A stretch of DNA of 27,498 bases from the NCBI RefSeq assembly GCF_023653455.1, contig NZ_JAKEDR010000029.1, forward strand, positions 1 to 27,498. Direction: 5' to 3'. The position numbers and the translations under genes were made by a program. Source of the DNA: Paraclostridium ghonii (lineage in GTDB: Bacteria > Bacillota > Clostridia > Peptostreptococcales > Peptostreptococcaceae). The notes beneath the pieces are model-generated. The model searched no databases. It was not told the DNA's origin and saw only the letters and a program-made list of their open reading frames with translations. Shown piece by piece: positions 5,347-19,928 of the stretch. The first letter of the stretch is position 1. Every line of letters starts with the position of its first letter.

Positions 5347-5865
5347 ATGAATAAATCAAAGATATTCTTTGATATTGAAAAGGAAACAAAATGGCTCAAT
5401 ACTTTATCAAAAAAAGGATATAGACTAATTGATAAAAAGTGGTTCACATACATCTTTGAGCCTTGTGAAAATGGAGCTTATATTTATCAAATTGAAAGAA
5501 GAAAGCCTTTCACTTATGAAAAAAATAAAGATTATATAGATTTTATATCTAGCTTAGATATTAATACGGTATCAACACAATGGGGTTGGATTTACTTTGA
5601 AAAAGAGAATAATGGAAAAGAGTTTAATATATTTTCAGATATTCCATCTAAAATATACCACTATAAAAACCTTATTATTACACTATTAATAATAGGTTTT
5701 ATTAGTTTCTCTATTTTAGCTAGTGGCGTTCAAGGCCCATATATATTAAATATTTCATTTCCTCTTGTAGCCAATTTAGTAGTAATACTTTCATCTATTT
5801 TTACAATTATAAAGTATCTACTAAAAATCCATAGATTAAAAAAAGAAAATTCTATTATACAATAA
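5347..5865 (+). CDS. DUF2812 membrane protein
   Basis: The 172-residue protein has a cytoplasmic N-terminal domain starting FDIEKETKWLNTLSKKGYRL, the DUF2812 hallmark, with WGWIYF near residue 80. Two membrane helices follow (about 108-130 and 135-158), and the tail is charged. DUF2812 proteins are usually encoded with PadR regulators. Their molecular role is unknown; a part in envelope stress or transporter control has been supposed from context only. AAAGGAGTATAAATAATT precedes the ATG. A strong hairpin terminator follows. Confidence 0.85.
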   Translation: MNKSKIFFDIEKETKWLNTLSKKGYRLIDKKWFTYIFEPCENGAYIYQIERRKPFTYEKNKDYIDFISSLDINTVSTQWGWIYFEKENNGKEFNIFSDIPSKIYHYKNLIITLLIIGFISFSILASGVQGPYILNISFPLVANLVVILSSIFTIIKYLLKIHRLKKENSIIQ

Positions 5866-5907: not shown

Positions 5908-5937
5908 TAACCGTATCACATCCTTGTGATACGGTTA
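5908..5937. terminator. bidirectional hairpin terminator
   Basis: TAACCGTATCACA pairs with TGTGATACGGTTA over a 4-nt loop. It serves the padR operon and the convergent minus-strand gene. Its arms resemble the terminator at 11497-11536 (GTATCAC and ATACGGTTA shared). Confidence 0.8.
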
Positions 5938-5963
5938 TTCTCTATAACCTTTTACTATATATT

Positions 5964-7040
5964 CTATCTTAGTTTATATTTTTCACTTAATAGATTTGGT
6001 ATTTCTGTATGCTTACTTAAATCATATATTTTTTTTGCCTCTTCTATTGCACTTGAAAAATTGTCCATTAAAAATGTAAGTGAACTTAGTTGAGAAACTT
6101 CAACCAACTTTTTGTCTTTTAACACTTTATCTTGTATTTCCTTTGACAAAAACACATCCTCTGAATATAAGAAAACTATGTAATTAACTAATGATAATTT
6201 ATCCTCATGGGATAACTTATTAAATTTTTTATAGAAATTCATATATCTTTTATCATTCGAATCCATGAACATCATAACGATACTAGTATCTTTTAGTGGA
6301 AATATACAAATATGTAAATTTTGTATCCTATATTTCCGATCTTTATCGTATATATCATTTAAAACTTCACCATCTAAATCCGTTACAAGAGCTATACTAC
6401 CTTGAAACGCTAAAGGTACAACATAGTCTAATTTTTCATGATAAAATTGATAGTATTCTTCATTACAGTTTATTTCACTTAATCTTTTTGCTTTTTCATA
6501 ATCTCTCTTATATTCCTCTAATTCAGCATCTTGAATACTGTGCATCTTTCTCACAAAATCTAATGCAAGAGGATTCTTTTCTCCTATTATTTCATACAAT
6601 GCATGATCATTTATCCTTTTTCCTATATGCCTTAAAAAATTTTTCATAGCTATTTGTGCTAACATTTTAGGCGTGGCTTCTTTTTCATAGTTATCTGGAT
6701 TTTCATATTCTTGAAAAATTGTACTATCGCACTCTTTACATATTATTTGAAATGTTCCAGCATTTTTAACTCCTTTCTCATCATCTAGTAATGGTATATT
6801 AATTAATGTATTTGAATAATACACCGCTCCATTAGTTGATATATTCCTTAGGCAAAATGCTGGTACTGAGTGTGAGTTACAGAAACTAGATTTCTTTTCC
6901 TTGCAGTGTAAACAGCTATCTCCCTTAGCTCTTCTTCTAGTTTGAGTCATTATATGACCAAATTCTTTTTTTCTAGCTAAAACATCATTTTCTATCTCAC
7001 CTTCATATAATCCAAGTTTTAAAAATTCTATTTCTTTCAT
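5964..7040 (-). CDS. unknown protein with HNH-like zinc-finger motif
   Basis: I do not recognise the family of this 358-residue protein with certainty. The N-terminal third contains Cys pairs and a His laid out like a treble-clef or degenerate HNH finger: C43-x2-C46, C54, SHSVPAF with H57, then C101-x2-C104-D. Proteins with a CxxC...SHxIP...C..C arrangement occur as solitary genes in bacterial accessory regions. The remaining 240 residues are mostly helical and charged, with no membrane segment or signal peptide. It is transcribed alone, convergent to the padR operon and divergent from the radical SAM cassette. A role in defence is possible but not shown. The ATG has AAGGGG upstream. Confidence 0.6.
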   Translation of the reverse strand: MKEIEFLKLGLYEGEIENDVLARKKEFGHIMTQTRRRAKGDSCLHCKEKKSSFCNSHSVPAFCLRNISTNGAVYYSNTLINIPLLDDEKGVKNAGTFQIICKECDSTIFQEYENPDNYEKEATPKMLAQIAMKNFLRHIGKRINDHALYEIIGEKNPLALDFVRKMHSIQDAELEEYKRDYEKAKRLSEINCNEEYYQFYHEKLDYVVPLAFQGSIALVTDLDGEVLNDIYDKDRKYRIQNLHICIFPLKDTSIVMMFMDSNDKRYMNFYKKFNKLSHEDKLSLVNYIVFLYSEDVFLSKEIQDKVLKDKKLVEVSQLSSLTFLMDNFSSAIEEAKKIYDLSKHTEIPNLLSEKYKLR

Positions 7041-7098
7041 ATTCTACCCCTTTATTTAAAATAGCTAAAAATACACATATTAAATAATATATATACAC

Positions 7099-7293
7099 TT
7101 AAATATTTTTACGTAAAAAAGAAGAAGCAAATTCTGTATATGAATTTATTTTATAATATTTATACTTAATTATATCATTTAATGATTTTTTAACTTTGTT
7201 TAATTTTAAATTTTTTACTTAATGTAGTATATCTAATTCTACATCAGTAGTTTCTGGATTTAATATTGCATTATAAATCTTTAAATATTTCAT
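7099..7293 (-). pseudogene. decayed gene fragment
   Basis: One minus-strand frame reads as plausible protein for 65 codons with a single in-frame TAA at codon 25. The first part includes NAILNPETTDVELDIL and the second ends YTEFASSFLRKNI. The frame also extends a few codons upstream of its ATG before another stop, so the N-terminus is probably lost. I cannot name the parent gene. AT-rich chance similarity to coding sequence remains possible. Confidence 0.3.
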
Positions 7294-7605
7294 TTGTCCA
7301 TATATCTCTAGAAAAATCTAATTCCTTATATTTTGAATATAGTAAATATTATAAGATTTACTATATGTAATAAAAATGCACTTTATCGTCTGCTTTTACT
7401 GATTTTTTTACATTTACATACGAATTTTAATTTTAGATTACTTTATTAGATTTTTAGAGATAGTATATATTAATATAATTGAAAAACTATATCCTTGTTA
7501 GTACTTATTTAATTTTTAAGCTAGAAAGTATAATAAAGTTGTATAGATATTTATTTTAGAAGTTTTATAACTATTAAACAAATTCTAACCAAGAAGGTGA
7601 TTTAA
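7294..7605 (+). promoter_or_regulatory. leader region of the radical SAM cassette
   Basis: No gene is seen. ATATAGTAAAT (7337-7347) and ATTTACTATAT (7356-7366) form a perfect 11-bp inverted repeat around 8 nt, a possible operator. TATAAT hexamers lie at 7474-7479 and 7529-7534, but neither has a good -35, so expression may need an activator or another sigma factor. Confidence 0.35.
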
Positions 7606-10008
7606 ATGAAATGTAATCCATTATTAATCTTTCCTCCAGGATGGAGTCCATTTGGACCGTATGCTGCTCTTCCTGTCCTAAAAGGGTACTTAGAAAAACA
7701 CAATATGAATTCTACAGTAATTGATTTAAATTTAGATTTTTATAATGAAATATTTTCAGAAAGATTTATAGATAAATGTTATAAAAAATGCTTTGAAAAA
7801 TTCAATATACTAGATTTAAAATCCGAACTGACTAAGTCAGAAAAGGAACAATATAGAAAATTTTCTAAAGCAGTATTAATGAAAAATGTAAAAATAAATA
7901 TCGAAGAAGCAAAAAACATTATTAAAACTAGAAATTATTACGATTCTGATAAAGCTCACTTTTCTAAAAATATATTATTTAATGCATTATATTTAACAAG
8001 CTTAGCCTATGATGGTGATTTTAAATTTAATAGATTTACATTAGATTATTCTGTTAGGTCTTCTTATGAAGTAATGCAATCCCTAGATGACATTGATAAA
8101 AATCCATTTATAGATTTCTTTAATAATGGAATCATAAAAAAAATAAAAATTTCTAATTATAACACTGTAGCTTTATCTATAACTGGAAATTCACAATTGA
8201 TTCCTACTCTTACACTTGCAAAGTTAATTAAAGAAAAATGTTCTAATATAAAACATATTTCTGTAGGAGGAAATTATATAACTAGAATATCTCAAGGTTG
8301 GAAAGATAAACATGATTTCTTTAAATATATAGATTCTATAATGACATTTGAAGGGGAAAAATCATTGCATAATTTATTGTTATATTTAAATGGGGATCTT
8401 GATATAAAAGATGTACCTAATCTAATGTATGTACAAGATGATAAACTCATTATAAACCCTTCTTATACGCTTGATGTTAATGAGTTTACAACAGCAAATT
8501 ATGATGATTTACCTTTAGACGATTATTATATGCCTGAAAAAGTTATTCCTATATTTACATCTAGAAGTTGTTTTTCTAAATGTGCTTTTTGTTCAATACC
8601 TTATTCCAGCAAAGACAAATATAGAAGTTTAGAAATATGTACGGTTTTCAATGATATGAAATTATTCAATAAAAAATACAATGTTGAGAACTTCGCTTTT
8701 GTTGATGAAACATTTACCCCTGATAAAATGTTAAAACTATCGCGATGTATAAAAGAAGAAGGTTTATCATTTAAATGGTATGGAGAAACCAGATTTTCAC
8801 CTCTCTTTACACAAGAATTTTGTAAAGAACTTTATGATGGTGGATGTAGAAAAATACAATTTGGATTAGAGTCATATAATCAAGAAATTTTAAATAAGAT
8901 GCAAAAAGGTATAAAAAAAGATTGGATACATCCTACAATACAAAATTGTTTTAAAGCAGGAATTTCAGTTCATATGTTTTTTATGGTTGGGTTTCCTGGA
9001 GAGAAAAGAGAACAGGCTTTAAATACAATATTGTTTACTAGAAAAATGTATCAAGAGTCTCGACATAAGTATAACAATCCAAACACAACATTTGGATGGG
9101 ATGTATTTGGATTAGATAAATATTCTGATGTTTGGTTAAACCCAGATAAGTATGGAGTTTCTATAAAAAATGGCTCGGATTACTACGATTTAGATATTCA
9201 ATATGACTTCAATGTAATTGATGGTATGAGTCAATTAGAAGCAAAAAATTTATCTGAACAATATAATAAAGATCCTTATATTAATATAAAAAACTTCGGA
9301 ATACACCCATTCCAAGACATGACAAATCAAATATATTCAGAAGAGGAAAAGTTTTTATTAAATTGTATGCGAAATCTAAAAACAGAAAAAACATATAATA
9401 CTAGAATTTTATTAGATACAGGTTCATACATTAACCTTAAATATAATAGTGACATAGAAGTTATAAAATTAAATTATGATATATCTACTATGAGCTTAAA
9501 AAAGTCTGAAATATATTGTATTTATACTAACAATAATAATTCTGTCTATATTATTGATAATACTATGTTTAATTTATTAAAAAATAATTATATGAACACC
9601 TTCGAAGTAGAGATAACCTCAAATATAAAAAATTCCATTGAGGATCTGATTTTTTATGGATTCGTTCAAATTGAAGGATACATTAATTCTTCAGAGTATG
9701 ATTTTAATAATTCTAAATTAATCTTTAATGAAAATTCTATAGTATTTGATATTAATCAAGATGATGGATTGGAAAAAGAATTATTTTGCTATACTACAGG
9801 ATCACAAATTAAAATCAATGAATTTTCTTATGATCTCTTAACTACCTTCGATGGGAACTTAAGTGCAAAAGAACTTTTTTCATTGGTAATTGAAGAAAAA
9901 ATTGAAATTGATCCTGATATTTATAGGGAATTGATTTATTCAGCACTGAATTCATCAATTTTAAATATAGTAAAAGGGGGTGAAGGTCCGTGTCTCAATC
10001 TAAGCTAA
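7606..10008 (+). CDS. B12-binding radical SAM enzyme with PqqD-like C-terminus, probable peptide maturase
   Basis: The 800-residue protein begins with a cobalamin-binding-type domain (about 1-290; N-terminal LIFPPGWSPFGPYAALPVLKG, and SVGGN at 219-223; no DxHxxG motif). A radical SAM core follows (about 310-560) with the cluster motif C322-x3-C326-x2-C329, then FVDETFT, GCRKIQFGLES and FFMVGFPGE. A long C-terminal extension ends in a PqqD-like helix-turn unit at about 726-790 (KINEFSYDLLTTFDGNLSAK), the type of domain that binds leader peptides. Such enzymes perform methylation or other C-C chemistry on unreactive carbons. Its last 19 nt overlap the start of a 34-codon peptide gene and an exporter follows. 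I infer RiPP maturation. The start is an ATG with AGAAGGTGAT 7 nt upstream. Confidence 0.85.
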   Translation: MKCNPLLIFPPGWSPFGPYAALPVLKGYLEKHNMNSTVIDLNLDFYNEIFSERFIDKCYKKCFEKFNILDLKSELTKSEKEQYRKFSKAVLMKNVKINIEEAKNIIKTRNYYDSDKAHFSKNILFNALYLTSLAYDGDFKFNRFTLDYSVRSSYEVMQSLDDIDKNPFIDFFNNGIIKKIKISNYNTVALSITGNSQLIPTLTLAKLIKEKCSNIKHISVGGNYITRISQGWKDKHDFFKYIDSIMTFEGEKSLHNLLLYLNGDLDIKDVPNLMYVQDDKLIINPSYTLDVNEFTTANYDDLPLDDYYMPEKVIPIFTSRSCFSKCAFCSIPYSSKDKYRSLEICTVFNDMKLFNKKYNVENFAFVDETFTPDKMLKLSRCIKEEGLSFKWYGETRFSPLFTQEFCKELYDGGCRKIQFGLESYNQEILNKMQKGIKKDWIHPTIQNCFKAGISVHMFFMVGFPGEKREQALNTILFTRKMYQESRHKYNNPNTTFGWDVFGLDKYSDVWLNPDKYGVSIKNGSDYYDLDIQYDFNVIDGMSQLEAKNLSEQYNKDPYINIKNFGIHPFQDMTNQIYSEEEKFLLNCMRNLKTEKTYNTRILLDTGSYINLKYNSDIEVIKLNYDISTMSLKKSEIYCIYTNNNNSVYIIDNTMFNLLKNNYMNTFEVEITSNIKNSIEDLIFYGFVQIEGYINSSEYDFNNSKLIFNENSIVFDINQDDGLEKELFCYTTGSQIKINEFSYDLLTTFDGNLSAKELFSLVIEEKIEIDPDIYRELIYSALNSSILNIVKGGEGPCLNLS

Positions 10009-10094
10009 ATAAATTAAAAAACTATAAAGAAAAAACTATAAAATTTGACAAAAACATAGTTTCTCAATCTACTACTCAATATTGTCTTAAGTAA
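9990..10094 (+). CDS. putative RiPP precursor peptide (34 aa)
   Basis: A GTG start lies inside the end of the radical SAM gene in another frame, 9 nt after AAAGGGGGTGA. An in-frame TGA immediately upstream (9981-9983) rules out a longer form. The product is Lys-rich at the N-terminus (SKLNKLKNYKEKTIKFDK, suitable as a leader) and ends in a short Ser/Thr/Gln segment with one Tyr and one Cys, SQSTTQYCLK, which would be the core. There is no double-glycine. The overlap implies translational coupling to the enzyme. It could be a chance frame, but position, RBS, composition and the exporter downstream all support a precursor. Confidence 0.6.
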   Translation: MSQSKLNKLKNYKEKTIKFDKNIVSQSTTQYCLK

Positions 10095-10129
10095 AAATCT
10101 ATATGAATAACTAACTGACTATGCTTTAC

Positions 10130-10171
10130 ACATAAGGTAAAATAGATAAAAATATCTATTTTACCTTATGT
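10130..10171 (+). terminator. perfect 19-bp hairpin between peptide and exporter genes
   Basis: ACATAAGGTAAAATAGATA is followed by an AAAA loop and its exact complement. The 3' flank is only weakly U-rich (ATTTCT), so it may act as a partial terminator and RNA-stabilising end that gives more peptide mRNA than exporter mRNA. Confidence 0.6.
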
Positions 10172-10231
10172 ATTTCTATAATCAAAGTCTCTTAAACAAT
10201 ATATATTTACTAATTAAAGGAGGAGAATTAA

Positions 10232-11434
10232 TTGATTGCTAGTGCGTCTATATTTAATAACAAAAATTTCAAAAATTTTTACCTAGCTCAAGCCATTTCC
10301 TCATTTGGAGACTGGGTTAGTTATATCGCCATTCCACTGATAGTATATGGCATTACGAAAGATCCTATATCAATGGCTGTATATACTGCTTTAAAATTTA
10401 TACCTACTATTCTTATAGCTCCTTTTTTAACAAAACTTACATCCCGGTTTAGTAAAAAAAGTCTACTGGCAATATCAGATGTAGTAAGAGGAATGATATT
10501 TTTAGGATATCTATTTACTGAGGATATTTATTTCATTTACTTAATCACATTTATAACTAGCATGTTTAGCGCTATTTTCAATCCTATAAAGTTCAGTCTT
10601 ATTCCAGATATAGTTGATAAAAAATATATGACTAAATCTAATTCTTACATATCTGGAGTTTCAAGATTGATGATGTTAATTGGCCCGTCCATAGGAGGGG
10701 TTATAATGGCTTCTTTCGGTCAATATATTGTCATTATAATAAATTCAGTTAGCTATTTTATTTCTCTTTACTTTATATTAAAGATGGACATAAAGGATTT
10801 AAATACAGTAACTGCTAATTTAAATAAAAATAAGATAAAATATATGTATTTATTAAAAAAGATTTGGATAAATAAAGAACATCTAGTTAAATTTCTATTA
10901 ATAACTTCGATAATAAACTGTAACTTTGGGGCTCTTAATACTTTATTTCCAATAGTATCTTATAAGTTTGAAAATTCATCATTAATTTATGGGCATATCA
11001 TGTCTGTATTAGGGGTAGGTCTATTAATAGGAACTATGATAACACCTAGATTAATAAAAAATAAGAACTTTACCAAGGTATATGGTATAGCAACTGTATT
11101 AGGTTCAATATTTCTTGCATTATTTGGTGCTAGCAATAGCTATATATTAACACTTATTATGGTCCTTGGTATAAGTGTAAACAATGGTATTCAGGAAATA
11201 TCATCAACTAGTTTTATACAAAATGATGGTGGAGAGTATTGCTTAGATTTCTTTACGATATCTCAAACTATAAGTTCTTCGTTAATTTTAGTAAGTACAA
11301 GTGTTGCATCTATAATGGTTAAATATTTAGATTTATTTTATACATTACTTATAATTTCCATGTTATCTATTATTTTAGGTATTTTAGTAATAATGATAAA
11401 AGAAAAAAAAATTAATAATATTAATCTTAGTTAA
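10232..11434 (+). CDS. MFS exporter (MacB/Mef- or EntS-like), linked to the peptide cassette
   Basis: The 400-residue protein has about 12 membrane helices. Its N-terminus, NFKNFYLAQAISSFGDWVSYIAIPL, is typical of the MFS subgroup that includes macrolide and enterobactin exporters (FrnFr..w.a...s.lGd.v...a.p). A conserved IGPSIGGVIMA element lies in helix 5. The start is TTG with a perfect AAAGGAGGAG 5 nt upstream. A chance ATG does not fit the frame. It lies 137 bp after the peptide gene across a hairpin. Exporting the modified peptide or giving self-immunity is the natural inference. A general drug exporter is the alternative. Confidence 0.82.
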   Translation: MIASASIFNNKNFKNFYLAQAISSFGDWVSYIAIPLIVYGITKDPISMAVYTALKFIPTILIAPFLTKLTSRFSKKSLLAISDVVRGMIFLGYLFTEDIYFIYLITFITSMFSAIFNPIKFSLIPDIVDKKYMTKSNSYISGVSRLMMLIGPSIGGVIMASFGQYIVIIINSVSYFISLYFILKMDIKDLNTVTANLNKNKIKYMYLLKKIWINKEHLVKFLLITSIINCNFGALNTLFPIVSYKFENSSLIYGHIMSVLGVGLLIGTMITPRLIKNKNFTKVYGIATVLGSIFLALFGASNSYILTLIMVLGISVNNGIQEISSTSFIQNDGGEYCLDFFTISQTISSSLILVSTSVASIMVKYLDLFYTLLIISMLSIILGILVIMIKEKKINNINLS

Positions 11435-11496
11435 AGATATATTTTTATTGATATAGAATTAAAAAGAGGATGTTAAGAAATTTGTATAAATAAGAA

Positions 11497-11536
11497 ACTA
11501 TTGACTGTATCACTCATTTGTAATACGGTTAATAGT
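11497..11536. terminator. bidirectional terminator, 17-bp imperfect stem
   Basis: ACTATTGACTGTATCAC faces GTAATACGGTTAATAGT with G-U pairs and one mismatch. It is followed by CTTTT on the plus strand and lies between the convergent exporter and anti-sigma genes. It is related to the hairpin at 5908-5937. Confidence 0.7.
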
Positions 11537-11556
11537 CTTTTAAAATACTATATCTA

Positions 11557-12588
11557 CTACTTTAATGGTAGTTTAAACTCACTAAATACATCTAAGTTAT
11601 CAGTACTTTTATCTACAACTTTTACTATAATATACTCTGAATCTTTAGATATAGGAGTAAATTTTTTATATTCTAATGTTCCAATCTTGCTTTCTAAGTT
11701 GTAGCTACATGTATGTCCCTCTAATTTATTACCTTTATCATCATATGCTAGTATATACGCACTATCCCCAAACTCCTTAGGTATATCTACTTCTACTTCA
11801 GTAGTTCCTGGAGTTAAAACAACTTTTTTAAGTAAAGCTTTATTATTTTCTAAGTTAGGTTCAAACTTTATATTCTTACTATCATCCTTTTTCATAGCTA
11901 ATTTATAGTTCCAATGACCTTTTATATATTTCAATCCTGTTTCATTCCAGATACTAAGATTTGATATATTTATTTTTAAATCAAATGTATCCTCTATATT
12001 TATTCCCTTCTCTATCAGTGGTACTAAATCAATATATTGTAATACTACATAAGTATTTTCATCAATCTTTTTAGTAGCAGAATCAACTACACTTAACTCT
12101 TCATCACTAAAACTAGTTTTTATATCTCCTTCATTAACAGTTTTATTCAACCCAACATAATCTGATTTATTAAGTTTACTATTATTTGATTCTATTAGAT
12201 AGCTTATAAAGATATTGCTCCCATCACAATATGCTTCTTGCACAGTTATATCTATATCATTGCTTACAGCTTTTTCATTTATTAATTTTAAATTTTTATT
12301 GTTTACGCCTTTAACAAATGACATTTTTTCAGATAATGCATTGTCTGATTTTAATGTATTCATTACATTTCCTAGAAACGGTATTTTCTCTGCAAGTGCG
12401 GGATGAGTTACACTCATTCCTAAAAGAATAACACAAATCATTCCAAATGATAAAGCTGTATTTTTAATGACCTTTTTTCTTCTTTTTTCTCTTTTTATAA
12501 ACGCTTTTGTTTCATTTATTCTCATATCTATAAAATGTGGGATTTCACTGCCACCTATTATTTTATCAACTTTGTTCATTTGATCCAT
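11557..12588 (-). CDS. DUF4179 anti-sigma factor, membrane-anchored
   Basis: The 343-residue protein has a short cytoplasmic N-terminus ending in a basic stretch (KREKRRKK, about 32-39), one membrane helix (about 43-60) and a large extracytoplasmic beta-rich region of the DUF4179 type (about 60-340). The gene begins 3 nt after the sigma factor stop, with GGGAGGT lying over that stop, so the two are translationally coupled. In this family the N-terminus holds the sigma factor and the outside domain senses an unknown signal. It is a paralogue in architecture of the 342-residue protein at 18364-19392. Confidence 0.85.
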   Translation of the reverse strand: MDQMNKVDKIIGGSEIPHFIDMRINETKAFIKREKRRKKVIKNTALSFGMICVILLGMSVTHPALAEKIPFLGNVMNTLKSDNALSEKMSFVKGVNNKNLKLINEKAVSNDIDITVQEAYCDGSNIFISYLIESNNSKLNKSDYVGLNKTVNEGDIKTSFSDEELSVVDSATKKIDENTYVVLQYIDLVPLIEKGINIEDTFDLKINISNLSIWNETGLKYIKGHWNYKLAMKKDDSKNIKFEPNLENNKALLKKVVLTPGTTEVEVDIPKEFGDSAYILAYDDKGNKLEGHTCSYNLESKIGTLEYKKFTPISKDSEYIIVKVVDKSTDNLDVFSEFKLPLK

Positions 12589-12591
12589 TAC

Positions 12592-13098
12592 TTATACCTC
12601 CCTTATTATCTTAGTATTTTTTCTTAACTTATTTCTAGCCCTAGATAACCTGGATTTAATAGTACCTTCTGATTCTTTCAATATTGCACTTATTTCTCTA
12701 GTGTTAAATTGAGATATATAATAAAGTGATACAACTAGTTTTTGTTCTTTTGATAAAACATTTAACATCTCTTCTATTTCAAATTTAATTAAGAATTCTT
12801 GCGTATATCCTTCTTCTTTATAGTTGTCAAAAATCAATACTTCTTTATTTTTAGCCATAATATCTTTGCATTTATTTATTAATATTTTCGTCAACCATGT
12901 TTTGAAGTAAGAATCATCTTTAAGTGATTTTATATTTCTATATGTAGATATTATTGTTTCTTGTATTGCATCTGCTACATCATCATCATCATTTAAAATA
13001 GATTTTGCAGCCTTATATAGAGCTAATTTATTTTCTTCAATCAACTCAAAAAAAGATTCTTCATTCCCTTTTTTAGCTTTTTCTATTAAGTTTTTCAT
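12592..13098 (-). CDS. ECF RNA polymerase sigma factor
   Basis: The 168-residue protein carries sigma region 2 (about 8-75; DDDDVADAIQETIISTYRNI and FKTWLTKILINKCKD) and region 4 (about 110-160; VVSLYYISQFNTREISAIL, then SEGTIKSRLSRARNKLRK), with no region 1 or 3. This is a typical ECF factor. It is the first gene of a two-gene operon with its anti-sigma factor. The start is an ATG with AGGAGGAAG upstream. GAAAGTAACA about 35 nt before the gene could be an autoregulated -35 element, but this is weak. Confidence 0.92.
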   Translation of the reverse strand: MKNLIEKAKKGNEESFFELIEENKLALYKAAKSILNDDDDVADAIQETIISTYRNIKSLKDDSYFKTWLTKILINKCKDIMAKNKEVLIFDNYKEEGYTQEFLIKFEIEEMLNVLSKEQKLVVSLYYISQFNTREISAILKESEGTIKSRLSRARNKLRKNTKIIREV

Positions 13099-13341
13099 TA
13101 CTTCCTCCTAAAATTCTATGTCCTTACATGTTACTTTCCACATTTTACTTTATCTATCTCCAATTATTAGACTGATTTTTTATCCAAATAGTTCCATTTA
13201 TTTTTAATTTTTTAATAAAAATAATAAACTTTAAATTAAAAACCATATTAAACTATTTATACTAAATAACATATTAACTATTTGATAATTAATATAAATT
13301 TAAAATACACGTATATACTTTTTCACATTTAAAACTTTATT

Positions 13342-13398
13342 AAAACAATAAAATAACTATATAAAAACTTAGTTTTTATATAGTTATTTTATTGTTTT
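13342..13398. terminator. 27-bp perfect palindromic terminator
   Basis: AAAACAATAAAATAACTATA with its continuation to 13368 is exactly complementary to 13372-13398, with a 3-nt loop (TTA). The inner 16 bp match the hairpin at 2396-2434. It lies downstream of rep1 and its small follower frame on the minus strand, and upstream of the sigma operon. Confidence 0.8.
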
Positions 13399-13489
13399 AA
13401 CTTGTATTTTTTTTAAATAACTTCATCAAATAATTCAATATCTTACTTATGTATTCGGTTTCATTCTCATTATAATCTATATTTAACAC
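13397..13489 (-). CDS. possible small protein (30 aa) or gene remnant
   Basis: From a GTG at 13489 the minus strand encodes 30 residues with good protein-like composition: an acidic start (NIDYNENETEYISKI) and a basic, amphipathic end (NYLMKLFKKNTS). The stop runs directly into the 27-bp terminator, which is what a real 3' gene end looks like. No convincing ribosome binding site is seen, and in-frame codons continue a little upstream before a stop, so it may be the tail of a lost gene. Confidence 0.25.
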   Translation of the reverse strand: MLNIDYNENETEYISKILNYLMKLFKKNTS

Positions 13490-13562
13490 TCTTATTTTCT
13501 AATATTAATCCTAAGTTTTTCTATAAAGAGATCTCTTGTAAATTTTCACTTCTCTTTTTTTA

Positions 13563-13614
13563 TCATTTAAGGTTCCCATGTGTCGCATTTATATTTAATT
13601 TTATTAGTAATTTC
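13563..13614. repeat. orphan iteron and flank duplicated downstream of rep1
   Basis: One rep1-type iteron (ATTTAAGGTTCCCATGTGTC) is followed by GCATTTA and TTTAATTTTATTAGTAATT. The same order ends the main iteron array at 14897-14970, except that one 22-bp unit is missing here. This is a fragment of the origin copied to the other side of rep1. Confidence 0.8.
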
Positions 13615-13619
13615 TATAT

Positions 13620-14723
13620 TTACCAAAATAAGTCCATTTCTTGTTGATGAAGAATATCCCCTTCTTCTTCTAACTTATATTCAGTAATCTTATTTTCCAA
13701 TGTTCCTTTGAAAAACTTATAAGATCCTGCTTTGATTTTTTCAACATCATCTTTATCAAGAGTTATCATAACTGCATCTTCAAATGCTCTTTCCATATAT
13801 ACATTTTTAAAATCAATATCTTTAAAATCCATTTTAATCCTTCTTAAAGTTCCTTTTGTAAATAAACTCTCATCAGGTATATATACATTATTTGCAACTG
13901 CCTTTGAATCATCAACATTAGAATTTTTACTTATATCTTTTAAATCTTTACTATCTAAAACTTCTACATCAACTGAACATTCATCCAATAAAATTTGTTC
14001 TTGTTCTTCGCTATTGACTATAATATCTTTAGCAAAATACTTTCGTTTATCTAAATCTTTAACTATAAAATCAATAGAATCAACTCTTCTTCCAACTTTA
14101 TTTTCATTAAAATCTATCTTGAAACATCCAGTATTATTAAGTTCTTTTATAGCTGGAACTATAATTCTTCTCTTAAAATCATTGTATCTATCATATTTTC
14201 CTTCTATCATCAAAAGTTCCTTAAGCTCATCAACTTTATAATTTATAATAGATTTAGTTCCACTCCATAATCTTAGTAAATCGTAAAACCTTTGAGCATT
14301 TGGGTTTATTAGTCCGAAAAATATAGCTAAGTTAATAGGAGTATAACCTGTATCTAAATAGTTTCTTATGTAGTTATGAATTTCTTTAGATGCCTCAATT
14401 TTAAAAGTTTTTCTAGATTTTATATATTTAAAACCATTGATAAAACCATATTCCCCCCAGCCTTCTTCATCTTTAAAATATATACTTTGTTTTCTTAAAT
14501 TAACTAATAAATTTGAAATTGAATCTACAGAACTAGTCTGCTTTTTCTTTATTATAGTCTTAAATTCCTCATGAGATATTTCACATTTGATAATATCATC
14601 ATTATTTTTTTGTAATTTATATAAAAGCATTAGAAATATTCTATTTTCTAATGTAGATATATTATATTTAGCTTTTATAATTATATTATTTTTCATAACT
14701 ATATTTTTTTCATTTATATCCAT
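13620..14723 (-). CDS. Rep_3-superfamily plasmid replication initiator, copy 1
   Basis: The protein has 367 residues from the chosen start. It has the two winged-helix domains of Rep_3 (RepB/RepA) initiators: about 8-125 (IIKAKYNISTLENRIFLMLL) and about 130-220 (NAQRFYDLLRLWSGTKSI, FKRRIIVPAIKELNNTG). A conserved C-terminal part ends EEEGDILHQQEMDLFW. It binds iterons to open the origin. I place the start at the ATG at 14723, because GGCGGAGGC lies 6 nt upstream of it; the ATG at 14741 would put that site inside the gene. TTGACG (14788-14793) and TAAATT (14765-14770) form a promoter next to the iterons, so autorepression is likely. Strong paralogue of the protein at 15179-16321. Confidence 0.93.
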   Translation of the reverse strand: MDINEKNIVMKNNIIIKAKYNISTLENRIFLMLLYKLQKNNDDIIKCEISHEEFKTIIKKKQTSSVDSISNLLVNLRKQSIYFKDEEGWGEYGFINGFKYIKSRKTFKIEASKEIHNYIRNYLDTGYTPINLAIFFGLINPNAQRFYDLLRLWSGTKSIINYKVDELKELLMIEGKYDRYNDFKRRIIVPAIKELNNTGCFKIDFNENKVGRRVDSIDFIVKDLDKRKYFAKDIIVNSEEQEQILLDECSVDVEVLDSKDLKDISKNSNVDDSKAVANNVYIPDESLFTKGTLRRIKMDFKDIDFKNVYMERAFEDAVMITLDKDDVEKIKAGSYKFFKGTLENKITEYKLEEEGDILHQQEMDLFW

Positions 14724-14808
14724 TCTTATGCCTCCGCCCAATAATTCATATAAATACTAATTATAATTTAATATAAAAATAGAATTACGTCAATTTTTTA
14801 AAATATGC

Positions 14809-14940
14809 GTATTTAAAGTTCCCATGTGTCGTACTTAGAGTTCCCTCCTGTCGTATTTAAAGTTCCCATGTGTCGTACTTAGAGTTCCCTCCTATCGTAT
14901 TTAAGGTTCCCATGTGTCGTACTTACAGTTCCCTCTTGTC
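14809..14940. repeat. iteron array of rep1: six 22-bp units
   Basis: Six units start at 14809, 14831, 14853, 14875, 14897 and 14919 with no gaps. They alternate between type A (GTATTTAAAGTTCCCATGTGTC) core TTCCCATGTGTC and type B core TTCCCTCCTGTC, so the real period is 44 bp. A partial unit GCATTTAC follows. This is the initiator-binding part of the origin and lies about 85 bp upstream of rep1. Confidence 0.95.
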
Positions 14941-14989
14941 GCATTTACGTTTAATTTTATTAGTAATTCCAATGCTTTCAGATATGTCT

Positions 14990-15178: not shown

Positions 15179-16321
15179 CTACCAAAACATATCCATTTCT
15201 TGTTGATGGAGAATATCTCCTTCTTCTTCTAACTTATATTCAACAACCTTATTCTCTAAGGTAGCTTTAAAAAATTTATACGAACTTGCTTTAATCTTTT
15301 CAACATCATCTCTATCAAATGTAATCATAACTGCATCATTAAAAGCTTTTTTCATGTATTTATTTTTAAAATCAATTTCCTCAAAATCTAATTTAAAGTT
15401 TCTTAAAGTTCCTTTTGTAAAAACCAATTTATCAGGTATGTACATTTCTTTATATAATTTAGTTATTTTAGGGTTTTCAATTATTAAATCTGCTTTTTCG
15501 TATGTATCTACAGTAATTGCCGATTCTTTCATTTTTTTAAAATCTGTCAATTCATTTCCAATGTCTATGCTTTTTCCAAAGTATTTTCTTTTATCTAAGT
15601 CCTTAACTATAAAATCTATAGACTCAACTTTTCTCCCCACTTTATTTTCTTTAAATTCTATTTCAAAATATCCAGTGTTATTAAGTTCTTTTATAGCTGG
15701 AAGAATAACCCTTCTCTTAAAGTCCCCATATAAATTATACTTTTCTTCTATTTGGAGAAGTTCTTTTAACTCCTCTACCTTGTAATTTATAATTTGTTTA
15801 GTGCCACTCCAAACCCTTAATAAGTCATATAATCGTTGAGCGTAGTAGTTATTCATTCCTAATTTAACTATTAAGTTTATAGGAGTATGCCCTTCCCTTT
15901 TGTCATAATAATTCTGTATTAAAGTATAAATTTCCTCTGTAGCTTTGACTGTAAAAGTATCTTTATCTTCATCGTAAGTTGCCCCATTTACAAGTCCGAA
16001 TCTATGCCATTTATACTTTTCCTTACCCTGAATCTTTTCAGCTATTAAAATTTCCTTTAATCTTAATGACTCTAATAGATCACTAATCCCCTTTATTGTT
16101 TTGTCTTTTTCTTTCCCTATTAAAAATTTCAATTCATCTCTATGTATCTCACAACTTAAAATACCGTCTTTTTCTTTTTGAAACTTATATAATAAAAGTT
16201 CAAATACTCTATTTTGGACCAATGTTAAGTTATATCTAGCTTTAACTAATGAGTTATGTTTCATTAGTACTTTTATATCTTCATCTGTTCCAAATTGTTT
16301 TCTTAAGTCAGATTTTTTCAT
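15179..16321 (-). CDS. Rep_3-superfamily plasmid replication initiator, copy 2
   Basis: The 380-residue protein is collinear with rep1: VKARYNLTLVQNRVFELLL in the first winged helix, YYAQRLYDLLRVWSGTKQI and FKRRVILPAIKELNNTG in the second, and a C-terminus EEEGDILHQQEMDMFW. Similarity is highest in the second winged helix and the C-terminus and lowest in the linker (about 245-290), so this is an old duplication or two captured replicons. The ATG has AGAGGTGGG upstream. The minus-strand promoter TTGCAT-16-TATTAT (16347-16374) is overlapped by an inverted half-iteron, TATGACAA (16375-16382), an arrangement known for autorepression by Rep dimers. Confidence 0.93.
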   Translation of the reverse strand: MKKSDLRKQFGTDEDIKVLMKHNSLVKARYNLTLVQNRVFELLLYKFQKEKDGILSCEIHRDELKFLIGKEKDKTIKGISDLLESLRLKEILIAEKIQGKEKYKWHRFGLVNGATYDEDKDTFTVKATEEIYTLIQNYYDKREGHTPINLIVKLGMNNYYAQRLYDLLRVWSGTKQIINYKVEELKELLQIEEKYNLYGDFKRRVILPAIKELNNTGYFEIEFKENKVGRKVESIDFIVKDLDKRKYFGKSIDIGNELTDFKKMKESAITVDTYEKADLIIENPKITKLYKEMYIPDKLVFTKGTLRNFKLDFEEIDFKNKYMKKAFNDAVMITFDRDDVEKIKASSYKFFKATLENKVVEYKLEEEGDILHQQEMDMFW

Positions 16322-17156: not shown

Positions 17157-17688
17157 TTATTTTACAGTTCCGATTTTATTAAATGGATATAATCTTATAT
17201 CAACTTTTCCAATTACATCATCAATATTAATAGCTCCAATTTCCCTACTATCTCCACTTTTAGGTCTATTATCTCCCATAGTAAATATATGATTTGGGGG
17301 GGACAATCATATCTATGTTTCCATCTGTGTTAACACCATGTAAGTAGTCTTCATTTAATTTTTTACCATCAATAAAAACTTCAGCATCTTTGATAACGAT
17401 ATGTTCGGCAGGTAATGCTATTACTCTTTTAACTAAGTCTTTCTTTTTATTTGTTTTATTGTCAATTAAATCGGTCTTAAAAACAAGTATATCTCCTCTC
17501 TTAGGAGCTTGCTTAATATAAGAAAGTTTATTGACTATTAAATATTCATTATTATTTAATGTAGGATACATTGATTCACCGTTAACTATAGTAGGCTTGA
17601 TGAAAAGAGTGATACTGAAAGCTAAAAGCATTGATACGCTTATAGTTTTTAACCAACTAATTATTTCTTTTTTTATTTTTTCAGTCAT
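17157..17688 (-). pseudogene. lepB: type I signal peptidase, frameshifted in a G7/C7 run
   Basis: Signal peptidase I cleaves signal peptides outside the membrane. The first 139 codons hold a membrane anchor (about 11-31), the catalytic Ser39 in NGESMYP and Lys87 in LVKRVIALP. The frame then stops soon after MIVPP. Seven consecutive G residues at 17296-17302 mark the break: removing one base gives NHIFTMGDNRPKSGDSREIG, the missing conserved box, and a natural end at 17157. The repaired protein would have 176 residues, a normal length. The rest of the gene is intact, so this is a recent mutation, phase variation or a base-calling error in a homopolymer. GGAGGAAATTA precedes the ATG. Confidence 0.9.
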
Positions 17689-18363: not shown

Positions 18364-19392
18364 TTATTTTAACTCACTTAAATCTATTGTAAATTCATCA
18401 CCAATTTTTTTGAAATCATCATTCATTTTACCACTTGTATTTGCTTGTTTTGCAGCATAAGGTACAAGCTTTAATTTTGTTACATTTTTATCTAGTTTTT
18501 TATCTAAATTAGCTAATTTTAGTTTGCCTTTATTTTCATCAGTACCTATTAAATAAAACTCAACATTATTACTTAAATCATCCTTTCCTACTAACTTTAT
18601 ATCATAGTAAACTAATTCTTTATTATGAATTTTTCTATCATAGAGTATATTAGAGCCTAAAGCATTAGTTCTATATTCTTTTAATGTTATTGTTTCATCT
18701 TTTCCTAAATCAAAAGATTGATTTAACTTTATAGTTTTTGTATCAAGAGCAAGTTCATCTCCATTTGTTTTAAATTCAAATATCCATTTTCCAATAATAG
18801 TTTTTTCTATATTATTTTCAAAGTAAAATGGATTAGAATAAACTATTTTAACATCTAAGTCACCTTTTACTTCTTCACCTAAGTCATATCTAAGTACTTC
18901 TTCAACTGTATTTTTATCAATTGCAGTAGCACCGCCACTTCCCCCTAATCCCATAAGTTTTCCATTTACATAAATACTTGCACAACCCATAATATGTCCA
19001 TTTTCAAGTTCTTTTCCATATTTATACGTTGTAGATACAACTAGAGTATCTTTATCTAGCACAACTTCATTTAGGGTTATTGTAAGTCCATTTTCTGTTA
19101 TGGATTTTCCAACTACTGTTTTATAGTCATCTAAGTTTGACTCTAATCCTAAAGCATTTTTTATATCGTATATTACTTTATACATATTTGCATAAACAGG
19201 TTGGCGAAATACAAATAATCCACCAATTATAATCATACCAGATATACCAGCGGCTAATATTTTCTTAGATTTGTTTTTTCTTTTGTTTAATTTAGACTTT
19301 ACTTTAGATTTTATCAATTCTTTATTTACATTAATCTCTTCATAGTTATCTATATCAAATTCTACATCATTAAAAGTTTTATATTCATTCAT
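18364..19392 (-). CDS. DUF4179 anti-sigma factor, membrane-anchored (second pair)
   Basis: The 342-residue protein has a cytoplasmic N-terminus with a Lys-rich stretch (about 28-45), one membrane helix (about 45-62) and an extracytoplasmic DUF4179-type domain containing a Gly-rich turn (GKLMGLGGSGGATA). It starts 14 nt after the sigma factor stop and is expected to hold that factor at the membrane. Its N-terminus differs from the other DUF4179 protein, consistent with a private partner. Confidence 0.83.
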   Translation of the reverse strand: MNEYKTFNDVEFDIDNYEEINVNKELIKSKVKSKLNKRKNKSKKILAAGISGMIIIGGLFVFRQPVYANMYKVIYDIKNALGLESNLDDYKTVVGKSITENGLTITLNEVVLDKDTLVVSTTYKYGKELENGHIMGCASIYVNGKLMGLGGSGGATAIDKNTVEEVLRYDLGEEVKGDLDVKIVYSNPFYFENNIEKTIIGKWIFEFKTNGDELALDTKTIKLNQSFDLGKDETITLKEYRTNALGSNILYDRKIHNKELVYYDIKLVGKDDLSNNVEFYLIGTDENKGKLKLANLDKKLDKNVTKLKLVPYAAKQANTSGKMNDDFKKIGDEFTIDLSELK

Positions 19393-19406
19393 AACTACTA
19401 ACCTCC

Positions 19407-19928
19407 TTATTTACGGATTTCTTCTCTAATCTTTTTTCTACCTCTAGATAATCGACTATAAAAACTAGATACACTTAAATTATTTTCCTTGGCTATTGCT
19501 GGAGCATCCACGCCTTCTAAATAATACTTTATAAAAATATCTTTATCTTTAGAGTCTAAGTGCTTAAAAATATCTTCTATACCTTCTTTAATTTCAAGGC
19601 TAAGTAAGTTTTTGTCTATGTAATAAATATCCGCATTGATTTCAGATGTTTCATACTTAGATAGATATTTTTTCTTGTAGTTAATTGCTTTATATTTTGC
19701 TATTACACAAATCCAGTTCTTAAATGAATTTTTATTTCTATCAAAACTATCTATGTTATCCCAAATGGCTATAAATGCATCGCTTATACATTCTTCTTCA
19801 TAGTTTGTTAATTTCCCTAAGTTACTTCTAACAACAGATGCAACAAGACCACTGTATTTGTCTATTAGCATTTCTATTCCCTTCTGTTTTTTCTTTTTTA
19901 TATATTTAATAATCAATTCATCTTGCAA
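19407..19928 (-). CDS. ECF-like RNA polymerase sigma factor (second pair)
   Basis: The 173-residue protein has region 2 (about 10-80; YEEECISDAFIAIWDNIDSF and NWICVIAKYKAINYKKK) and region 4 (about 115-170; KYYLEGVDAPAIAKENNLS, then SSFYSRLSRGRKKIRE). The start is a TTG, with GGGAGGAAG 6-7 nt upstream; no ATG exists in this frame near the start. It is only distantly similar to the sigma factor at 12592-13098, so the two pairs are not a recent duplication. Confidence 0.88.
   Translation of the reverse strand: MQDELIIKYIKKKKQKGIEMLIDKYSGLVASVVRSNLGKLTNYEEECISDAFIAIWDNIDSFDRNKNSFKNWICVIAKYKAINYKKKYLSKYETSEINADIYYIDKNLLSLEIKEGIEDIFKHLDSKDKDIFIKYYLEGVDAPAIAKENNLSVSSFYSRLSRGRKKIREEIRK

Follow-up and report, generated by a model that had tools for sequence, protein, structure and literature searches.

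The window analyzed here is the whole 27,498-base contig C212 of a Paraclostridium ghonii assembly. On its forward strand, between positions 7606 and 11434, a radical SAM (S-adenosylmethionine) enzyme gene is followed by an overlapping 34-codon gene, a 19-bp hairpin, and a major facilitator superfamily (MFS) gene. We interpret this arrangement as a likely cassette for a ribosomally synthesized and posttranslationally modified peptide (RiPP). The features reported by an earlier sequence-only reading of this DNA all lie where that reading had placed them, while the names that it gave to the two end domains of the enzyme can be recognized only with the help of homologues. The features, with the evidence in parentheses, are as follows (L013, L016, and L067 are family loci in other genomes).

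7606..10008, + strand: predicted radical SAM peptide-modifying enzyme, 800 amino acids (open reading frame [ORF]; Radical_SAM Pfam match, E 1.9e-16; NCBIfam matches to B12-radical SAM families below cut-off; three further family loci)
7606..8475, + strand: putative cobalamin-binding-type N-terminal region, residues ~1-290, approximate limits, with a long insertion (Pfam match in a sister piece)
8557..9033, + strand: radical SAM core, residues 318-476, with C322-x3-C326-x2-C329 (Pfam; Cys conservation)
9757..9981, + strand: PqqD/RRE-like domain (RRE, RiPP recognition element), residues ~718-792, ~75 residues (hhalign; weak Pfam PqqD match in a sister piece)
9990..10094, + strand: predicted 34-codon precursor peptide gene, GTG start, 19-nt overlap with the enzyme stop (ORF; Shine-Dalgarno [SD] site; 33-codon homologues in L013, L016, and L067; shuffle tests)
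10080..10082, + strand: codon for Tyr31, the invariant residue proposed as the target (peptide alignment)
10130..10171, + strand: 19-bp hairpin between the peptide and exporter genes (19 pairs, loop of 4, dG -25.1 kcal/mol)
10232..11434, + strand: predicted MFS exporter, 400 amino acids, TTG start (Pfam MFS_1, E 2.1e-26)

A rare enzyme family with an adjacent short peptide gene

The enzyme family is rare. Searches with the enzyme and its alignments covered overlapping sets of 197, 393, 398, 198, 199, 3, 82, and 391 genomes (E limits, 1e-20 to 1e-50). Two of the three further members are intact, namely, L013 in genome G547 (36% identity over residues 5-790) and L067 in G1075 (37% identity in the alignment, aligning over profile positions 120-788). 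The third (L014/L016 in G504; 42% identity over the first 273 residues and 29% for the C-terminal piece) is interrupted by insertion-sequence genes, which we take to be IS66-type, and enzyme profile positions 314-493 were not found within the 17 kb examined. These genomes share the phylum of the window host and belong to three families other than its own. An N-terminal enzyme remnant (L025, 944-1420, minus strand) in G797, a genus mate of G547, suggests that the enzyme was lost in that genome, and no enzyme match was obtained at 1e-20 in five same-genus genomes.

We searched the zone from -40 to +400 bases around each enzyme stop for ORFs of 25 to 60 codons with an SD match. Exactly one such ORF, 33 or 34 codons long, was present at each of the four family loci. 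The window ORF (9990-10094; 22% G+C) has the GTG start, the 34 codons, and the 19-nt overlap with the enzyme stop that had been reported for it, and AAAAGGGGGTGA lies upstream as its ribosome binding site. The test set of distant relatives comprised 17 enzyme ORFs, 16 of them with enough downstream sequence (the 17th, L020, had 39 bases); none of the 16 had a 33-34-codon peptide gene at its 3' end. The RiPP interpretation of the sequence-only reading, which depended on a conserved short peptide gene at homologous loci, thus survives the comparison. The overlap between the peptide gene and the enzyme stop is 19 nt in the window and 11 nt in L016; in L067 and L013, the peptide gene follows the stop after gaps of 23 and 153 nt, respectively.

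In dinucleotide shuffles of the four loci, an ORF of 30 to 37 codons with an SD match arose 18, 103, 73, and 63 times per 2000, and an ORF that also ended in [QK]Y plus one to three residues arose 2, 1, 1, and 1 times per 2000, this motif ([QK]Y in the last 5 residues) having been picked once the peptides had been seen. The sum-of-pairs similarity of the four peptides was equalled by 0 of 5000 shuffles, and the scores of the six individual pairs were reached by 67, 7, 14, 74, 10, and 1273 shuffles per 5000.

Met1 and Tyr31 are the sole invariant columns in the alignment of the four peptides. The Tyr is preceded at position 30 by Gln, Gln, Lys, and Lys and followed by Cys, Val, Ala, and Ala, and it is the second to fourth residue counted from the C-terminus. 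The conserved Q-Y-C core proposed from the window peptide was therefore ruled out by the alignment (two of the four peptides have Lys in place of Gln, and three have Val or Ala in place of Cys), and it reduces to [Q/K]-Y-[C/V/A]. A Thr-x-Tyr core, true of three peptides, was broken by the fourth (L067). This locus came to light once the expectation had already been fixed from the first three, and it agreed with that expectation save for Met, not Thr, before [QK]Y.

The distant relatives are 21-32% identical to the enzyme among the matches listed, and they align with the full enzyme profile to at most position 659 of 801. Two of them, L018 and L008, are accompanied by other, longer Cys-containing peptides (46-50 residues). 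In L018, a 46-47-codon peptide ending in GNCYPCSECC (7695-7838) follows the enzyme relative and is likely another RiPP precursor; in L008, a 50-codon peptide ending in CNNNVFIGTTIC lies directly after a relative that ends at 832 (minus strand). Another stretch, L017, encodes two identical 26-codon peptides with a strong SD site (MREFEIPELISYSEEEVTNSISVSAC) at 5763-5843 and 5909-5989; the stretch also carries a nucleotidyltransferase-like gene, genes for two relatives of the radical SAM enzyme, and one for a PqqD protein, and it looks like another RiPP cluster.

A PqqD-like domain at the C-terminus of the enzyme

Pfam PqqD was not found in the window protein, and its match in the L016 homologue was weak (E 0.089). 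An alignment of the last ~100 residues of the four family enzymes was taken as the query for comparison with a PqqD profile built of 27 domains taken from 30 loci (L035, L040, and L054 excluded). The hhalign probability was 85.8 (P 5.4e-6; 72 columns), while the comparison segments scored 3.1 (the preceding segment), 1.6 and 1.6 (two other enzyme segments), and 0.6 (the reversed domain). The PqqD-like C-terminus of the sequence-only reading is thus supported by the profile, although Pfam misses it in the window protein. In a prior three-sequence comparison, the last domain scored 67, the two segments jointly 56, and the preceding segment 0.1. Tandem RRE domains had been considered because the preceding region looked alike by eye; this idea was dropped, and a second RRE is unsupported, since the preceding segment scores 0.1 and 3.1 against PqqD. 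We conclude that the C-terminal domain is probably an RRE, for which leader binding is predicted. Among the loci then compared, a profile of the C-terminal region had just three matches, namely, the window protein, L013, and L016 (L067 was found later).

The radical SAM core and the N-terminal region

The CX3CX2C radical SAM core was confirmed by the Pfam match over residues 318-476, and C322, C326, and C329 are all invariant among the three intact family members. The best NCBIfam matches were TIGR04479 (PhpK P-methyltransferase; 140 bits, cut-off 600), TIGR03975 (rSAM_ocin_1; 107.1 bits over residues 169-527, cut-off 281.85), and TIGR03471 (HpnJ; 101 bits, cut-off 577.6), and the ApyD family NF050148 gave 64.1 bits (cut-off 750). 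Since all of these scores lie under the cut-offs, the chemistry of the enzyme is not readable from family membership. No SPASM family was listed for the enzyme by Pfam or NCBIfam at E up to 1. The nearest solved structures by sequence are 6fd2 (apramycin biosynthetic oxidoreductase; E 4.4e-9) and 9ccb.

The cobalamin-type N-terminus of the sequence-only reading is suggested by homology, mainly through one sister protein together with the NCBIfam matches below cut-off, and finds no Pfam match in the window protein itself. In the N-terminal piece of L016 (7749-8567), the B12-binding Pfam domain scored 31.8 bits (E 1.4e-7), 0.3 bit short of the cut-off of 32.1; the match in L013 was marginal (E 0.19), and L067 gave none at E up to 0.01. 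Cobalamin riboswitches occur in all four family host genomes, but 8 of 14 control genomes have them as well. From these homologies, the enzyme is likely to use cobalamin (class B).

Hairpin and linked exporter

The hairpin between the peptide and MFS genes is as reported (19 pairs; z -8.1), and 0 of 200 shuffles were as stable. It was the single site in a terminator scan of positions 7000-11700 (shuffle mean, 0.6), and only 4 of its pairs are G-C. It is perhaps a partial terminator or an RNA-stability element, and it may lower exporter expression relative to that of the peptide.

The MFS gene, with AAAGGAGG before its TTG start, likewise agrees with the exporter and ribosome binding site described earlier. 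An MFS gene is linked to the enzyme-peptide pair in all four family loci, at distances of 89 to 1208 nt. It lies 137 nt after the peptide gene in the window and 89 nt before the enzyme gene in L016, and it lies 1208 nt after the peptide in L015 (a wider stretch around L013) and 1110 nt after it in L068 (a wider stretch around L067), in both cases behind a DUF2087 regulator. The window MFS protein shares 33-34% identity with its L016 counterpart, which is the best match in G504 and adjoins that genome's enzyme (the G504 gene lies in two pieces), and 27% with the best paralogue in its own genome. A linked MFS gene is thus regular, and a single orthologous exporter is supported by these identities for the window and L016 only, because the other linked MFS proteins are generic relatives (24% identity for L015 and 23% for L068).

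An accessory module on a plasmid

Because the window carries two Rep3 replication initiator genes (13620-14741 and 15179-16321, both minus strand), we regard the contig as a plasmid. Fifteen of the 17 plasmid records resembling its first 24,900 bases are from Paraclostridium. Stretches of three P. bifermentans plasmids (L064, L065, and L066) are ~83-85% identical to the flanks on both sides of the cassette, and window bases ~7222-13564 have no counterpart in the compared stretches of these plasmids. Since the related plasmids share the flanks but do not carry the cassette region, the cassette is, on this comparison, an accessory plasmid module. Each of the three plasmids has an MFS gene in the corresponding stretch; that of L065, the one compared with the window MFS, was rejected as the same gene (unrelated, E 0.16). 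A search of whole plasmid records with the enzyme at 1e-15 returned four records, none of them from Paraclostridium (records very near the window's own may be omitted). Comparison of the two ends of the cassette region yielded no repeats (best E, 0.17). A phage search gave no match at E 1e-10, and scans of viral contigs and of the genome contig collection found no relative. The single PADLOC match, which would bear on a role in defense, was weak (E 2.9e-4) and lay within the radical SAM core.

Elsewhere in the window, positions 13565-13613 and 14808-14947, beside the replication genes, match several places in P. bifermentans plasmids and may be iteron-like. A T-box leader (398-657; 149.5 bits) precedes a gene for a branched-chain amino acid transporter (982-2328), and two pairs of genes for a sigma-70 (extracytoplasmic function-like) factor and a DUF4179 protein are located at 11557-13098 and 18364-19928 (minus strand).

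Interpretation of the cassette

Sequence comparison shows that the enzyme-peptide pair is conserved, that the enzyme has RRE homology, that one Tyr is invariant, and that an MFS gene is linked. With respect to what is expected of a RiPP system, a conserved short precursor gene was found in 4/4 family loci versus 0/16 distant relatives, and an RRE-like domain was found by sequence profile. We consider it likely that the locus is a minimal plasmid RiPP cassette in which an RRE-fused, probably cobalamin-dependent enzyme modifies the invariant Tyr of the 34-residue peptide. Within this interpretation, we infer cobalamin use, a leader/core division, methylation, proteolysis, and product export. The 34-residue peptide would be the substrate, and its N-terminal part would serve as the leader, to which the PqqD/RRE-like domain at the C-terminal end of the enzyme would bind. 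The core would then reach the radical SAM site, where the invariant Tyr would be modified by the class B-type enzyme. The most likely chemistry would be C-methylation, perhaps at the beta carbon; C-methylation is a first guess, because ApyD beta-methylates a penultimate Tyr. The leader would be removed by a host protease, and the small product would be exported by the MFS protein.

Several observations weigh against this interpretation. The enzyme falls under the cut-off of every NCBIfam family listed, and the B12-binding domain is absent from the Pfam matches of the window protein. One of the six peptide pairs (L016-L067; the pair with 1273 of 5000) is not alike beyond chance, and the enzyme gene is broken in L016, for which reason the L016 peptide may no longer be under selection. 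No leader peptidase gene was found in the cassette, a Peptidase_S26 gene being located ~6 kb off at 17269-17688. The MFS proteins of L015 and L068 are only 23-26% identical to that of the window, and the linked MFS of G547 scores 88.9 bits against 86.9 for another MFS of the same genome.

The same cassette could also carry out a different reaction, namely, a cross-link or another radical reaction (e.g., of Tyr to the preceding Gln or Lys, like the Glu-Tyr link made by PqqE) or the excision of Tyr as a small molecule like pyrroloquinoline quinone (PQQ) or mycofactocin. Gln or Lys precedes the invariant Tyr in all four peptides, an MFS protein suggests a small exported product, and the closest solved relative, 6fd2, is labelled "Putative apramycin biosynthetic oxidoreductase 4" and is no methylase. 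Tyr cross-linking or excision is known from PQQ and mycofactocin, and RRE-assisted radical SAM enzymes are known for Tyr cross-links and Tyr rearrangement, according to a review (PMC8326336). However, no SPASM family was listed for the window enzyme, and Thr is not conserved in L067. The cross-linking enzymes described there are generally of the SPASM type. We judge a reaction of this kind unlikely, although it deserves consideration.

The short gene product might be no substrate and instead regulate the enzyme or exporter, either as a small partner protein or as a signal peptide. This role would fit the lack of a visible core/leader boundary in the peptide; the conserved RRE-like domain and the C-terminal place of the invariant Tyr suit a substrate instead, which makes such a role quite improbable. 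The ORF is short, starts with GTG, and lies in AT-rich DNA, as a chance reading frame might. Chance is contradicted by similar ORFs at the corresponding position in three further genomes from as many other families and by the shuffles, which reach a motif-bearing ORF at most 2 times in 2000 per locus, and we regard it as scarcely credible.

Relationship to known systems

On sequence grounds, we place the cassette with RRE-containing B12-radical SAM RiPP systems, and none of the curated families tested includes the enzyme. In the aminopyruvatide (apy) system, the B12-radical SAM enzyme ApyD, which contains an RRE, adds a beta-methyl group to the penultimate Tyr of GYLYD (+14 Da; PMC10635010). 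The window system resembles it in acting, as predicted, on a ribosomal peptide with a Tyr near the C-terminus. Unlike the window cassette, the apy cluster as described there is larger, adding an MNIO, a P450, a methyltransferase, and a partner protein (PMC10635010); a Pfam scan of 20 window ORFs detected none of these families, and the window enzyme is far below family-level similarity (64 of 750 bits for NF050148). The second-best match, rSAM_ocin_1, is a RiPP maturation radical SAM C-methyltransferase family, whereas PhpK and HpnJ, the best and third-best matches, are small-molecule and hopanoid enzymes by name. The biphenomycin-like pbs cluster shares a B12-radical SAM gene, an MFS transporter, and short precursors with conserved aromatic residues, but modification there is centered on an MNIO with a partner protein and on an arginase, and the precursor motif is FHAFRF (PMC12026744).

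The sequence-only reading knew of no described class with this core and gene order. Its claim stands insofar as no description of the architecture with a [QK]-Y precursor was found in the literature searched, mostly without subscription papers and supplementary tables; it needs qualification insofar as ApyD is already described as an RRE-containing B12-radical SAM Tyr methylase (PMC10635010). We advance only tentatively, and with more doubt than confidence, the view that the cassette represents an undescribed RiPP class. Such a class would comprise one B12-radical SAM enzyme, fused to an RRE, together with a precursor of 33-34 residues in which a Tyr, two to four positions from the C-terminus, is the sole invariant core residue; it would be patchy in Firmicutes lineages, with at least one occurrence on a plasmid, and would yield a very small, MFS-exported, Tyr-derived product via a new radical reaction.

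If our interpretation is correct, the cassette would be a near-smallest reconstitutable B12-radical SAM peptide pathway, consisting of one enzyme, one 34-residue substrate, and one exporter. It would offer a clean system for exploring how a fused RRE presents a C-terminal Tyr. Additionally, the C-terminal domain together with the [QK]-Y ending would serve as a search key for a rare and patchy family that the curated models searched have missed.

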